The notes below the pieces were generated by a model. It had not been told where the DNA came from and did no database searches. It saw nothing but the letters and a program-made list of their open reading frames with translations. A stretch of DNA of 64,000 nt from Paludibacteraceae bacterium (GTDB taxonomy: Bacteria > Bacteroidota > Bacteroidia > Bacteroidales > Paludibacteraceae), in contig JAFVDX010000002.1 of the NCBI GenBank assembly GCA_017478225.1, positions 124,001 through 188,000 of the forward strand, given 5' to 3'. The position numbers and the translations under genes were made by a program. Below, in pieces: positions 31,698 to 60,688 of the stretch; the stretch's first letter is position 1; every line of letters begins with the position of its first letter.

Positions 31698-31740
31698 ATG
31701 CCACACCACAAATACCAAAACGCCCTAACAATCGCCCACA

Positions 31741-31768
31741 CGAAAACGATTTTCGCAAATATATTTGC
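31741..31768. repeat. Two small palindromes at the left edge of island 1
   Basis: CGAAAACGATTTTCG (31741-31755) and GCAAATATATTTGC (31755-31768) are adjacent perfect palindromes between the transporter gene and the first island promoter. The second overlaps the -33 element. Confidence 0.5.
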
Positions 31769-31795
31769 ATAAATCAAAGAAAAGCAGTAACTTTG
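31764..31795 (+). promoter_or_regulatory. Promoter of the KilA-N gene
   Basis: TTTG (31764-31767) and TAACTTTG (31788-31795) are 20 bp apart. The transcript would begin at the start of the repeated leader. Confidence 0.8.
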
Positions 31796-31799
31796 CAGC

Positions 31800-31873
31800 G
31801 ATTATTTGGAACGCGGTCGTCCTCGCCCGCAACCAAAACAAAAACATGTAATAACAGATTTGTTATATAGAAG
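31800..31873 (+). repeat. Mobile promoter-leader cassette, copy 1
   Basis: This leader carries a GC-rich half-palindrome (31808-31830), an AACCAAAACAAAAACATG stretch and the hairpin ATAACA-GATT-TGTTAT, and it ends in ATATAGAAG. Near-identical leaders lie at 36043-36126 and 60616-60688, each directly behind a TAnnTTTG promoter. The GC-rich half (26 bases from 31808) is identical to the left arm of the palindrome inside the nuclease gene at 34935. Confidence 0.7.
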
Positions 31874-31895
31874 CAGAAAGTTGCAAAGATAAAAT

Positions 31896-32736
31896 ATGGC
31901 CAATACGCTGAACGTACAAAGAACCGAGATAACAATTATTAAAGTTCATGCAGAAGACTACATCTGTCTGACAGACATGTTAAAAGCAAAGGACGGTGAT
32001 TTCTTTGTGACTGACTGGCTGCGTAACCGAAACACATTGGAATACATTGGTATTTGGGAGAAAGTTAATAACCCCGATTTTAATTATGGCGAATTCGCCA
32101 CAATTAGAAATAACGCAGGTCTCAATAACTTCAAAATCAGTGTCAAAGAGTTTGTTGAGCGCACGGGTGCGATCTGCTTGCAAGCAAAAGCTGGTCGTTA
32201 TGGCGGAACTTACGCGCATAAGGACATTGCTTTTGAGTTTGCCATGTGGATTAGTCCTACATTCAAATTCTATATCGTACGCGACTACCAGCAACTCAAG
32301 GAGAAAGAGCAAATATCATTAAATTGGTCTGTTAAACGCGAGTTGGCAAAGATTAAATTGGTCTGTTAAACGCGAGTTGGCAAAGATTAATTATCATATC
32401 CATACGGACGCTATCAAGGAGCACCTTGTGCCGCAGGAGATTGACACATACCATCGTTCGCTCATCTATGCCAACGAAGCCGATGTGCTCAATGTAGCGT
32501 TATTCGGAATGACCGCCAAAGAATGGCGTAACGCCCACCCGGAGGACAAAGGTAATATACGCGACTACGCAACGATTAACTAGTTGATTTGTTTGAGCAA
32601 CATGGAGAACCTGAATGCGGTCTTTATACATGAAGGCATGCCGCAAGGCGAACGCCTCCAGAAACTCATCCAGATAGCCATCCAGCAAATGACCGTGTTA
32701 GAGAATGTAGAAAGCAAGCATATTTTGAAAGGATGA
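31896..32736 (+). pseudogene. KilA-N domain protein, broken by a 34-bp duplication and a stop
   Basis: The intact gene would encode about 270 residues: an N-terminal KilA-N domain (ITDM-like LTDMLKA, RNRNTLEYIGIWE, YAHKDIAFEFAMWISP) and a C-terminal part with KEHLVPQEI and LFGMTAKEWR. Two lesions are visible. A perfect 34-bp tandem duplication (32321-32388) shifts the frame. TAG at 32581-32583 interrupts a frame that continues coherently (CLSNMENLNAVFIHEG) to TGA 32734-32736. KilA-N proteins are DNA-binding proteins of phages and mobile elements. Removal of one repeat unit would restore the first junction. Confidence 0.85.
32321..32388 (+). repeat. Perfect 34-bp tandem duplication in the KilA-N gene
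   Basis: Bases 32321-32354 and 32355-32388 are identical. 34 is not a multiple of 3, so the second copy puts the downstream part out of frame. Loss of one copy by slippage would reverse it. Confidence 0.95.
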
Positions 32737-34328: not shown

Positions 34329-35480
34329 ATGAAAATAGAATTACATAAAATTACCGTTCGCGAGCTTACAGAAGACTACGTGGACAATCAGGAAGCGGGC
34401 GTGAAAGCCTATGGTGGTAAGTTAGACGTGCGTCCGCCGTTTCAGCGAGAGTTCGTCTATAGCGACAAGGAGCGTGACGCGGTAATTGACACCATTACGC
34501 AAGATTTTCCGCTCAATGTGATGTATTGGTCGGTAAACGATGACGGTACTTTTGAAATCATAGACGGTCAGCAACGCACGGTTTCTATTTGTCAATATGT
34601 AAATGGCGACTTTGCGCACTTGTTCCGATATTTCGACAATCTCACCAAAGAGGAGAAAGAACAGATTCTCAACTACGAACTCTATATCTACCGCTGCACG
34701 GGAACGGACACGGAGAAACTCAAGTGGTTCAAGACCATCAATATTGCCGGCAAGAAACTCACCAACCAAGAGTTGCTAAATGCCGTCTATGCTTCGCCGT
34801 GGCTGAGTGATGCCAAGCGGTATTTCTCCAAATCCAACTGCGGCGCATATCTTATGGGCAATAAATACCTTACCGGTTCGCCTATTCAGCAGGATTATTT
34901 GGAGACCGTGCTGCGTTGGGCTGCCGACTGCTCTGGAACGCGGTCGTCCTCGCCCGCAACAAACAACGGCATGCGGACGGGGACGTCCGCGTTCCCAATA
35001 ACTATTGAGCAATATATGGCTCAACACTCCATCAAAGATACTGACGCTACGGCTCTTTGGCTCTATTTCCAACAAGTCATCAATTGGGTGCAAGCCAAAT
35101 TCAAATACCGCTCTGTGATGAAAGGCGTGGATTGGGGTGCTATCTACAATAAATATGGGCAGGAACACATTAACATCGAGGAAATGGAGCATCGCATCTC
35201 TGCACTAATCCAAGACTCCGATGTCGGCAATCAGAAAGGCATTTATTGGTATGTGTTTGATGCCGATGAGCGGCACTTGCAAATCCGCGCGTTTGACGGA
35301 AACACCAAGCGTCGCCAGTATGAGAAACAGAAGGGTATCTGTCCTATTTGCGGCAAGCATTTCGAGATAGAGCAGATGGAAGCCGACCACATAACCCCAT
35401 GGTCGCAGGGCGGTCACACCACGCCGGATAACTGCCAGATGTTATGCCGCGATTGTAACAGGCGCAAAAGCAGCAAGTAA
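34329..35480 (+). CDS. DUF262-HNH nuclease A
   Basis: This 383-residue protein has an N-terminal DUF262 (GmrSD/ParB-like) domain with RPPFQREFVYSDKERDAVI near residue 37 and EIIDGQQRTVSI near 76. This domain hydrolyses NTP or DNA in characterised relatives. The C-terminal HNH domain (about 337-383) has CPICGKHF, ADHITPWSQGG and CQMLCRDCNRRK, so both zinc Cys pairs and the catalytic His are present. With the adjacent methylase it forms a plausible restriction-modification pair. Residues about 202-223 are encoded by a palindromic repeat inserted in frame. A homologue without the methylase is at 39959. Confidence 0.87.
   Translation: MKIELHKITVRELTEDYVDNQEAGVKAYGGKLDVRPPFQREFVYSDKERDAVIDTITQDFPLNVMYWSVNDDGTFEIIDGQQRTVSICQYVNGDFAHLFRYFDNLTKEEKEQILNYELYIYRCTGTDTEKLKWFKTINIAGKKLTNQELLNAVYASPWLSDAKRYFSKSNCGAYLMGNKYLTGSPIQQDYLETVLRWAADCSGTRSSSPATNNGMRTGTSAFPITIEQYMAQHSIKDTDATALWLYFQQVINWVQAKFKYRSVMKGVDWGAIYNKYGQEHINIEEMEHRISALIQDSDVGNQKGIYWYVFDADERHLQIRAFDGNTKRRQYEKQKGICPICGKHFEIEQMEADHITPWSQGGHTTPDNCQMLCRDCNRRKSSK
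34935..34995 (+). repeat. Palindromic element inserted in frame in nuclease A
   Basis: Arms at 34935-34957 and 34973-34995 (23 bases each, 20 of 23 complementary) enclose a 15-base loop. The insert is GC-rich compared with the gene and is translated as GTRSSSPA...MRTGTSAFP. The left arm is identical to bases of the leader cassette at 31808. The same insertion is present at the matching place in nuclease B (40571-40631). Confidence 0.85.
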
Positions 35481-36007: not shown

Positions 36008-36038
36008 CTTGTTAGTTTCATTTTTTTTCGTACCTTTG
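36008..36038 (+). promoter_or_regulatory. Promoter of the STAND-like ATPase gene
   Basis: CTTG (36008-36011) and TACCTTTG (36031-36038) are 19 bp apart, directly ahead of leader cassette copy 2. Confidence 0.75.
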
Positions 36039-36042
36039 CAGC

Positions 36043-36126
36043 CATCATTTGAAACGCGGTAGGCTTGCCGGTCCTCGCCCGCAACCAAAACAAAAACATG
36101 TAATAACAGAATTTGTTATATAGAAG
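36043..36126 (+). repeat. Mobile promoter-leader cassette, copy 2
   Basis: From TCCTCGCCCGCAACC onward it matches copy 1 (31800-31873) almost base for base, including the ATAACA/TGTTAT hairpin and the ATATAGAAG end. The GC-rich half has about 10 extra bases (AGGCTTGCCG). The gene starts 22 bases later. Confidence 0.7.
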
Positions 36127-39651: not shown

Positions 39652-39980
39652 AGCATTACTATTATTTCGCGTTTACCGAAAAGCCCGTCAAAGTTTAAGG
39701 AGATAAATAGCAAATAATCAGTAAAGGTTTCTGTGTATAGGATGCCTTAATCCAACTAATATAGATGTTTACGTTCTGTGTGAGTTTCTTAAGTTGGATG
39801 AGGTTTCCGTGACGGGCTGCCTTGGTACGCGATAAGAAACTCGCACTTTTTCTTATCGCATCTGCCGAAAATTTGTCAACAGAGAAAACTGAAGAAACTG
39901 AGAAAATACTCAGAGTTCTCCATATCTCTGTTGAAACAAGCAGAAGCCGATTGATAGTATGCGTAAAACCACTATCAATC
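39652..39980 (+). ncRNA. Structured RNA element, copy B
   Basis: It begins with the same 18 bases as copy A (AGCATTACTATTATTTCG). P1 pairs 39667-39677 with 39824-39832. P2 is AGCCCGTCA (39682-39690) with TGACGGGCT (39810-39818). P3 is ATCCAACT (39750-39757) with AGTTGGAT (39792-39799). The long-range pairing is 39778-39791 with 39833-39846 (14 pairs, one G-U). The competing 3' hairpin pairs GCGATAAGAAA (39829-39839) with TTTCTTATCGC (39849-39859). P1-P3 differ in sequence from copy A yet still pair, while the long-range strand is nearly unchanged. A hairpin GATTGATAGT/ACTATCAATC (39949-39980) again ends the element, here with the start codon in its loop. Confidence 0.75.
39876..39934. repeat. 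Inverted repeat inserted in RNA copy B
   Basis: TCAACAGAGA (39876-39885) pairs perfectly with TCTCTGTTGA (39925-39934). Copy A lacks these roughly 90 bases, so this is a later insertion of a palindromic repeat between the RNA and the gene. Confidence 0.6.
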
Positions 39981-41119
39981 TATATGGCATTCGCCCGAAA
40001 TACCAGTGGGAGTTCGTTTATGATGAAAAACAGCGCAATGCCGTAATGGACACTGTTTGGCAGAATTTTCCGCTGAATGTCATGTATTGGGTCAAAACAG
40101 AAGCATCCACAGATTTATCAGATTTAACAGAACAGAAATCTGGTTCATCTGTTCAATCTGTGGACAATATACAATACGAACTTTTGGATGGTCAGCAACG
40201 AACTATCTCCATCTGCTCGTTTATTGCAGGCGAGTACATGATGAACTTTGACGGAAACTTGCTCGGTTTCAATAATATGACCATTGAGCAGCAAAATCGC
40301 ATATTGGATTACAAACTACAAGTCTATATCTGCGAGGGAACGGATGAGGAAAAACTGCGTTGGTTTCAGCGCATCAACATTGCCGGCGAGAAACTCAAAG
40401 AGCAAGAGATTCGCAACGCTATCTATTCCGGTTCTTGGGTGACACAAGCCAAACGCCGTTTCTCCAAGACAGGCTGCGTGGCATACAAGATAGGTTCAGA
40501 CTTCATGGCTGGTTCGCCTATTCGGCAGGATTATTTTGAGACTGCTCTCCGTTGGATTGCCGACTATTATGGAACGCGGTCGTCTTCGCCTGCATCAGAA
40601 GATAATATGCGGACGGGGACGTCCGCGCTCCCAGTTACCATTGAGCAATATATGGCGCAACAGCAGCATGACACGGATGCTGACGAACTATGGCAGTACT
40701 ACCAAGACGTCATCCATTGGATAGAGAAACTCTTCGGGCATAAGTACAAAAAAGAGATGAAAGGTGTGCAGTGGGGACTGCTCTATAACAAGCATAAAGA
40801 AACCCCTTTAACCGCTACGGCTATCGGTGAGCAGATGGCTAAACTGATGGCGGACAGCGATTTACAGAAGAAAAGCGGTATTTTTACCTATATACTTGAC
40901 GGCGACATTCATCATCTGGGTATCCGTGCCTTTGATGCGAATACACGCCGTGAGGTCTATGAGCGGCAAGGCGATAAATGCGCAATCTGCGACAAGCATT
41001 TCGAGATAGAGGTTATGGAAGCCGATCATATCACACCGTGGGTGGAAGGCGGACGAACGATTGCTTCCAACTGCCAGATGCTCTGCCGCGCTTGCAATAG
41101 ACGGAAAAGCAGCAAATAG
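39959..41119 (+). CDS. DUF262-HNH nuclease B, methylase-less and N-terminally altered
   Basis: This 386-residue homologue of nuclease A has DGQQRTISI near residue 78, NIAGEKLKEQEIRNAIY and a C-terminal HNH domain with CAICDKHF, ADHITPWVEGG and CRACNRRK. The catalytic residues are intact. The first 28 or so residues of nuclease A have no counterpart, because similarity begins at GIRPKYQWEFVYDE. It has no adjacent methylase. Two palindromic inserts are read in frame (40107-40163 and 40571-40631). ATG 39959 lies in the loop of the upstream hairpin. It could use the methylase of unit A for protection, or be inactive. Confidence 0.8.
   Translation: MRKTTINLYGIRPKYQWEFVYDEKQRNAVMDTVWQNFPLNVMYWVKTEASTDLSDLTEQKSGSSVQSVDNIQYELLDGQQRTISICSFIAGEYMMNFDGNLLGFNNMTIEQQNRILDYKLQVYICEGTDEEKLRWFQRINIAGEKLKEQEIRNAIYSGSWVTQAKRRFSKTGCVAYKIGSDFMAGSPIRQDYFETALRWIADYYGTRSSSPASEDNMRTGTSALPVTIEQYMAQQQHDTDADELWQYYQDVIHWIEKLFGHKYKKEMKGVQWGLLYNKHKETPLTATAIGEQMAKLMADSDLQKKSGIFTYILDGDIHHLGIRAFDANTRREVYERQGDKCAICDKHFEIEVMEADHITPWVEGGRTIASNCQMLCRACNRRKSSK
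40107..40163 (+). repeat. Second in-frame palindrome, nuclease B only
   Basis: CCACAGATT (40107-40115) pairs with AATCTGTGG (40155-40163), and CAGATTT (40119-40125) with AAATCTG (40136-40142). The insert encodes a Ser/Thr-rich peptide between the YWV and YELLDGQQR segments that nuclease A lacks. Confidence 0.75.
40571..40631 (+). repeat. Palindromic element inserted in frame in nuclease B
   Basis: Arms at 40571-40593 and 40609-40631 correspond to those at 34935-34995 in nuclease A. The translation is GTRSSSPA...MRTGTSALP at the equivalent protein position (about residue 204). Confidence 0.85.
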
Positions 41120-60580: not shown

Positions 60581-60611
60581 TTTGTATAATTCAGAAAAAA
60601 TCGTACCTTTG
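60581..60611 (+). promoter_or_regulatory. Promoter of the orphan leader
   Basis: TTTG (60581-60584) and TACCTTTG (60604-60611) are 19 bp apart. Confidence 0.7.
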
Positions 60612-60615
60612 CAGA

Positions 60616-60688
60616 CATCATTTGAAGCGCCGCACTCCTCACTCGCAACCAATACAAAAAAAAGTAACAACGATTTGTTATATAGAAG
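60616..60688 (+). repeat. Mobile promoter-leader cassette, copy 3 (orphan)
   Basis: CATCATTTGAA, a changed GC-rich half, CGCAACCAATACAAAAA and GATTTGTTATATAGAAG follow the same order as copies 1 and 2. No plausible start codon or gene follows within 300 bases, so the downstream gene seems to have been lost. Confidence 0.65.

Follow-up and report, generated by a model that had tools for sequence, protein, structure and literature searches.

Small bacterial repeats are usually regarded as scattered extragenic passengers. REP and REPIN sequences are short, GC-rich imperfect palindromes found in tens of copies and amplified in lineage-specific bursts; they occur together with RAYT (TnpA-REP) genes, which they flank. 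Nonautonomous elements of the IS200/IS605 type (PATEs) are moved in trans by a TnpA; they insert 3' of a tetranucleotide without duplication, carry a hairpin near both ends, and bear, at the feet of the hairpins, guide sequences pairing with the sites of cleavage. The end anatomy of IS200/IS605 elements used for comparison was taken from PMC6006769. Bacterial MITEs (Correia, ERIC, and others) are small nonautonomous repeats that appear in transcripts as hairpins (PMC2229807). Rickettsia palindromic elements (RPE) are palindromic repeats lying in frame inside genes. Among eukaryotic elements, the yeast LTR retrotransposon Ty3 is guided by Pol III factors and inserts precisely at transcription starts. 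In a literature search that misses most subscription papers, no bacterial element aimed at the transcription start, small repeats included, was found; the repeat described here lies nearly always at the predicted start, in front of dozens of unrelated genes of rumen bacteria.

The DNA analyzed (the window) is a stretch of 64,000 nucleotides from a Paludibacteraceae genome (positions 124,001 to 188,000 of contig JAFVDX010000002.1). The initial annotation had described a promoter-leader cassette at three loci, 31764-31873, 36008-36126, and 60581-60688. All three loci proved real, with the repeated unit present at each, and were resolved into the following features.

31764..31767, + strand: -33 box (TTTG) of the promoter before copy 1, outside the putative mobile unit (sequence; TTTG enrichment over the copies)
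31788..31798, + strand: -7 box plus CAG (TAACTTTGCAG), proposed insertion target of copy 1 (sequence)
31799..31873, + strand: copy 1, 75-bp form (sequence, BLAST)
31896, + strand: start of the KilA-N gene, 22 nt 3' of copy 1 (sequence)
36031..36041, + strand: -7 box plus CAG (TACCTTTGCAG), proposed target of copy 2 (sequence)
36042..36126, + strand: copy 2, 84-bp form with one additional A in hairpin 2 (85 bp) (sequence, BLAST)
36148, + strand: start of the AAA/ATPase_2 gene downstream of copy 2 (sequence, Pfam)
60581..60584, + strand: -33 box (TTTG) before copy 3 (sequence)
60604..60614, + strand: -7 box plus CAG (TACCTTTGCAG), proposed target of copy 3 (sequence)
60615..60688, + strand: copy 3, 74 bp, old and decayed, with 14 differences from the consensus (sequence, BLAST)
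61001, + strand: start of an AAA_14 ORF, 312 nt 3' of copy 3 (sequence, Pfam)

The third copy had been thought to lead into nothing, but is thus followed by the AAA_14 ORF, which has a promoter-like site of its own. The TAnnTTTG promoter had been counted as part of the cassette and had to be removed from it: the sequences upstream of the copies were unrelated, with only the generic -33 and -7 boxes and TTTGCAG recurring, and the bases between and around these boxes varied from copy to copy. Within the unit, the ATG of the sequence ATGTAA was confined to the young subfamily of this genome, and since other subfamilies have AGGTAA or TGATAA, it is not a conserved start codon. An upstream ORF or start-stop function for ATGTAA was considered and rejected because the sequence is not conserved.

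A BLAST search with 31700-31900 identified approximately 37 clear copies in the genome (2,191,219 bases, 46 contigs), with E values of 1e-10 to 1e-39, so the similarity is not due to chance. The unit is 74 to 85 bp long, and its 75-bp and 84-bp forms are distinguished by a 9-bp insert in the GC-rich hairpin. On its 5' side it has a hairpin (H1) with TTTGG/CCAAA, or an equivalent, closing the stem; an A-rich spacer connects this to a second hairpin (H2; ATAAC..GTTAT) on the 3' side, and ATAGAAG ends the unit. The sequences at the 5' foot, where guides would lie, vary (CCATC, CCGTC, and CGTCC). Seven copies matched the consensus of their length class exactly and 25 had three differences or fewer, with up to 16 in the oldest; judged from the sequences, the many identical copies are a recent burst. 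Tandem copies were found in two families, in this genome (C21:95650) and in the congener G177, joined exactly between GAAG and the C that follows, and the unit was therefore taken to run from the base after CAG through GAAG. Folding of single sequences was uninformative, as the fold statistic was unremarkable (z of -0.13 and -1.65). One copy (C44:101140), located between convergent genes, lies at the center of a perfect palindrome (AAGAGTCATTTTGCAG / CTGCAAAATGACTCTT) that is perhaps a terminator.

The flank directly 5' of the unit was tabulated for 37 copies. All 37 had A at -2 and G at -1, and C at -3 and G at -4 were each present in 35; T was found at -5 in 36, at -6 in 36, and at -7 in 34, A at -10 in 32, and T at -11 in 36. 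CAG directly preceded 35/37 copies, and the exact sequence TAnnTTTGCAG, in the sense orientation, directly preceded 29. The primary sigma factor of Bacteroidetes has TAnnTTTG as its -7 box; in B. thetaiotaomicron this box is centered at -7 from mapped starts, and its partner is TTTG near -33 (PMC7366714). A -33 TTTG box, 19 to 29 nt upstream of TAnn, was present in 16 of the 32 promoter copies tested, compared with 2.2 expected from shuffles. Together, the TAnnTTTG sequences and the enriched -33 TTTG make the upstream regions look like real promoters, and because the Bacteroidetes -7 box is centered at -7 (PMC7366714), the insertion point coincides with the predicted transcription start. Each copy would accordingly form the first ∼80 nt of the transcript of its gene.

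A clean empty site was found at one locus only, and promoters of other species have diverged in sequence. This was an emrA-like locus, where this genome has TAATTTTGCAG, the element, and then TCGATTTCGG, while congener G100, which carries the element at other sites, has TACTTTTGCAG joined directly to CCGATTTTC (TTTGCAG followed by CCGATTT; also given as TACTTTTGCAG followed by CCGATTTTCAAC). Another congener was also empty at this locus (TTTGCAGCCGATTTCG). The two arrangements are as expected if the element was inserted after CAG and no base was lost or duplicated. At C45:55904 and C29:56664, the orthologous flanks were too diverged to define empty sites, and in other congeners the secG, feoB, and korA promoters had -7 boxes and lacked the element. 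The initial annotation had proposed looking for target site duplications; none were clear, the borders sharing an ambiguous AG that was lost in several copies. Nor were there terminal inverted repeats, as the ends CCATC.. and ..AGAAG are not inverted repeats of each other. An emrA-like gene is preceded by a tandem duplication of a ∼260-bp segment that includes a leader copy (C45:45616 and 45879). This gene shares 93 to 97% identity with its counterparts in certain congeners, compared with ∼77% for the other genes of these congeners, which suggests recent transfer.

The identical copies at unrelated loci, the empty site, the species-specific families, and the tandem junctions argue for a mobile element. 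The explanation that we favor, with somewhat better than even confidence, is a small nonautonomous element that enters immediately 3' of TTTGCAG, a position that is the predicted +1, and would be mobilized by a Y1 (HUH) enzyme, rather than a conserved regulon leader. Within this explanation, mobility and start-site targeting are likely, the Y1 enzyme is a lead, and targeting of the open complex is offered as a hypothesis.

By its anatomy, the element resembles single-stranded DNA elements of the IS200/IS605 type. H1 and H2 provide a structurally conserved hairpin near each end, a fixed tetranucleotide lies 5' of the left end (G and C in 35/37, AG in 37/37) with no duplication at the one empty site, the final tetranucleotide is similar to the target, insertion has a single orientation, and tandem copies are joined at the end tag. 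The element differs from PATEs in being only 75 to 85 bp long and in having a core promoter as its target. The likeness to REPs and REPINs lies in the short GC-rich imperfect palindromes, the tens of copies, the lineage-specific bursts, and the presence of RAYT genes, and also in the occurrence of the GC-rich half alone and as an inverted pair. Unlike REPs and REPINs, however, the element is longer and has two hairpins, carries the tags GCAG (left) and GAAG (right) where REPs have GTAG (or GT[AG]G / CGTC) at the foot of the palindrome, and occupies one fixed site and orientation at promoters, whereas REPs are scattered extragenically. MITEs differ in having terminal inverted repeats and usually a TA duplication, neither of which is found here. 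We know of no MITE that aims at a -7 box. The resemblance to RPEs concerns the GC-rich half, which occurs in frame inside genes; complete leader units, by contrast, were seen in intergenic positions alone, most of them at predicted starts. The precise start-site insertion of Ty3 is an analogy only. In the window, the GC-rich half forms a REPIN-like inverted pair at 34931-34996 and 40569-40631, in frame within each of two GmrSD_N-HNH paralogs (ORFs 34329-35480 and 39959-41119), which have the insert GTRSSSPA..MRTGTSA in common. For an MmeI-type restriction-modification gene (C18:59837, C18:60956), the leader precedes the gene and a solo GC-rich half lies inside the coding sequence.

In the mechanism that we propose, a Y1 (HUH) transposase of the IS200/IS605-RAYT type, specific for single strands, would recognize both hairpins as well as the tags GCAG in the left flank and GAAG at the right end, and would insert the top strand 3' of GCAG. 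In an open promoter complex, the exposed non-template strand would offer a natural target, which would explain both the position and the orientation of the copies. The host could tolerate insertion at +1, as this would disrupt neither the promoter nor the coding sequence, and the A-rich sequence of the element may provide a translation start region of the Bacteroidetes kind. The start codon of several genes is located 6 to 22 nt 3' of the element, so the 3' end of the element probably serves translation initiation there. It is possible, as a tentative extension, that these features define a new class for which the open promoter complex is the landing site: single-stranded DNA would insert 3' of the -7 box, every copy would be placed at +1 in sense and always transcribed with the coding sequence unharmed, and dozens of mRNAs and a tRNA would have had their 5' ends rewired in one burst.

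For the candidate enzyme, two RAYT-like proteins with HxH and Tyr motifs were found (C14:97-1089 and C16:219281-220030). They matched NF047646 REP_Tyr_transpos with E values of 1.8e-11 and 1.6e-7, both below the curated cutoff, and Y1_Tnp (PF01797) had no match over the cutoff in the genome. RAYT homologs were present in 6/6 element-bearing genomes with at least 90% completeness; the incomplete genomes G016 and G074 had elements and no RAYT match. RAYTs were widespread among congeners, occurring in 123/178, and their presence did not track the element (12/18 carriers versus 111/160 others; P = 0.8). The close clade of the C14 RAYT was overrepresented among carriers (P = 3e-6 for a narrow set and 5e-4 for a broad set, values that ignore shared ancestry). 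REPs flank RAYT genes, but the RAYTs of this genome and nine congeners were mostly flanked by palindromes of the TCAGCCA..TGGCTGA type and not by the element; these palindromes are probably the true REPs of these RAYTs. Three similar palindromes lie in tandem (ATCAGCCATGTATGGCTGAT) upstream of the RAYT gene on C14. A RAYT was not accepted as the proven mobilizer, because another palindrome flanks the RAYT genes and RAYT presence does not track the element.

The weak link to RAYTs leaves some room for a miniature element that is moved by another transposase or recombinase and targeted by sequence alone, with transcription irrelevant and intergenic TTTGCAG lying mostly in promoters anyway. TTTGCAG by itself nearly defines the target, and sites without TA were also used. 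Four copies without a consensus -7 box and without a co-oriented gene, the one at C44:101140 among them, were still 3' of (G/A)CAG, so that the target may be plain sequence and not the open complex. Against this, promoter sites were favored: of 204 TAnnTTTGCAG sites in the genome, 29 were occupied, compared with ∼3/98 other intergenic TTTGCAG sites (P = 0.002), the latter figure being extrapolated from 368 kb of sequence chosen around copies. Terminal inverted repeats and clear target duplications, moreover, are lacking, and BLAST of the genome revealed no larger parent with the same ends. Such an element appears rather unlikely, though it is the best of the competing explanations.

Relatives of the favored mobile element were sought in other genomes. 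An exact scan for the right end over 84,980 species genomes returned only a few metagenome-assembled genomes, including the goat-rumen Paludibacteraceae RGIG3448 and RGIG3453; within the genus, the right end was present in 9/178 genomes. A covariance model matched 15/178 congeners, and 19/178 when rebuilt on diverged members, the weakest matches being doubtful. Of the matches, 14 came from G187, 8 from G100, 7 from each of G019 and G177, and 5 from G016, while a search of 393 genomes across the order with strict filters matched this genome alone. Most relatives were also located 3' of TAnnTTTGCAG or a close variant. G177 has a family of its own, with seven copies that share another H1 (TTTGAG..CTCAAA) and mostly follow TTTGCAG, and a third H1 type (TTTTCGG/CCGAAAA) occurs in other genomes with the same two-hairpin architecture. 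Searches of plasmids, phages, and viral contigs found no element, so carriage by phages or plasmids is without support. In four congeners (G177, G137, G162, and G016; loci L220, L187, L195, and L189), the element has nearly the same flanks, which suggests that the locus was transferred between species. On contig C10 of G019, three tandem GC-rich modules directly follow a TAATTTTGCA promoter and end in AACAAAAAAATGTTATATATTAG; this array may represent an intermediate or a relative of the leader.

The initial annotation had further proposed a common regulatory leader giving one control signal to the genes of an island. A conserved cis-regulatory RNA (thermosensor, ligand binding, or protein binding) could have been selected into many 5' untranslated regions, with near-identity reflecting recent recruitment or gene conversion and the +1 position reflecting selection for function. 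The sense orientation at promoters is as expected for such an RNA, and its structure is kept across species by compensated changes, mainly in H1: both sides changed in 8/15 stem pairs of alignment A2 (covariation of 0.168 versus a shuffled mean of 0.069) and in 9/15 of alignment A3 (0.318 versus 0.118), although both alignments were fitted to the structure, which inflates these counts; the H1 replacements are visible by eye. The first alignment, mostly of copies from this genome, lacked a covariation signal because its copies varied too little. In old copies, H2 and the tail changed slowest (14/276 sites versus 89/696 elsewhere; some of the differences counted may stem from old subfamilies), which is compatible with constraint on transposition or on RNA function.

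The genes themselves speak against a regulon. The 30 downstream proteins scanned with Pfam belong to unrelated families, with no common function and no restriction to the island: KilA-N, SecG, PspC, HlyD, FeoAB, CdsA, PIN, epimerase, DUF4421, Gfo/Idh, NAD kinase, 2-oxoacid:ferredoxin oxidoreductase (korA), MmeI restriction-modification, DUF4143/AAA_14, S49 peptidase, ATPase_2, pyridine nucleotide oxidoreductase, SBF symporter, OGG-like, M13 peptidase, CCA-adding enzyme, subtilase, ABC, PnuC, TPR, DUF1295, and others. One copy precedes a tRNA-Pro, and four or five face convergent genes or no co-oriented protein gene. Copies are spread genome-wide, many before housekeeping genes, and neither the service to island genes nor the single control signal is borne out, although a regulatory effect on individual genes is possible. 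What did hold is that the 5' region spreads independently of the genes: the genome-wide listing tied it to no single family, with ∼30 genes of unrelated families and one tRNA behind it and the same promoters lacking it in congeners. Furthermore, the loops and spacers of young copies are as identical as the stems, unlike in an old regulatory RNA, the exact single-base positioning exceeds what selection should need, and an Rfam search with the window and divergent relatives gave chance-level scores with no match at gathering level. A selected regulatory leader is thus improbable.

Spread through RNA, with the 5' leader reverse-transcribed and inserted at start sites, would account for the sense orientation at promoters and for the coincidence of the unit boundary with the predicted transcript 5' end, but the 3' boundary is equally sharp with no known transcript end there, and non-promoter copies exist, making this route very unlikely. 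Assembly artefact or chance similarity, which a draft of 46 contigs might invite, is refuted by the unique flanks that differ at each copy and by the independent families in other assemblies and the goat-rumen genomes, and its probability is negligible.

If the element does land at the predicted start of unrelated genes, each would acquire the same 5' leader, and mRNA 5' ends could change across the genome in a short evolutionary time. It would offer a testable case of promoter-directed transposition in bacteria and a natural means to map or tag start sites, and it may serve as a substrate of RAYT-like HUH enzymes, which form a large orphan group in Bacteroidetes.
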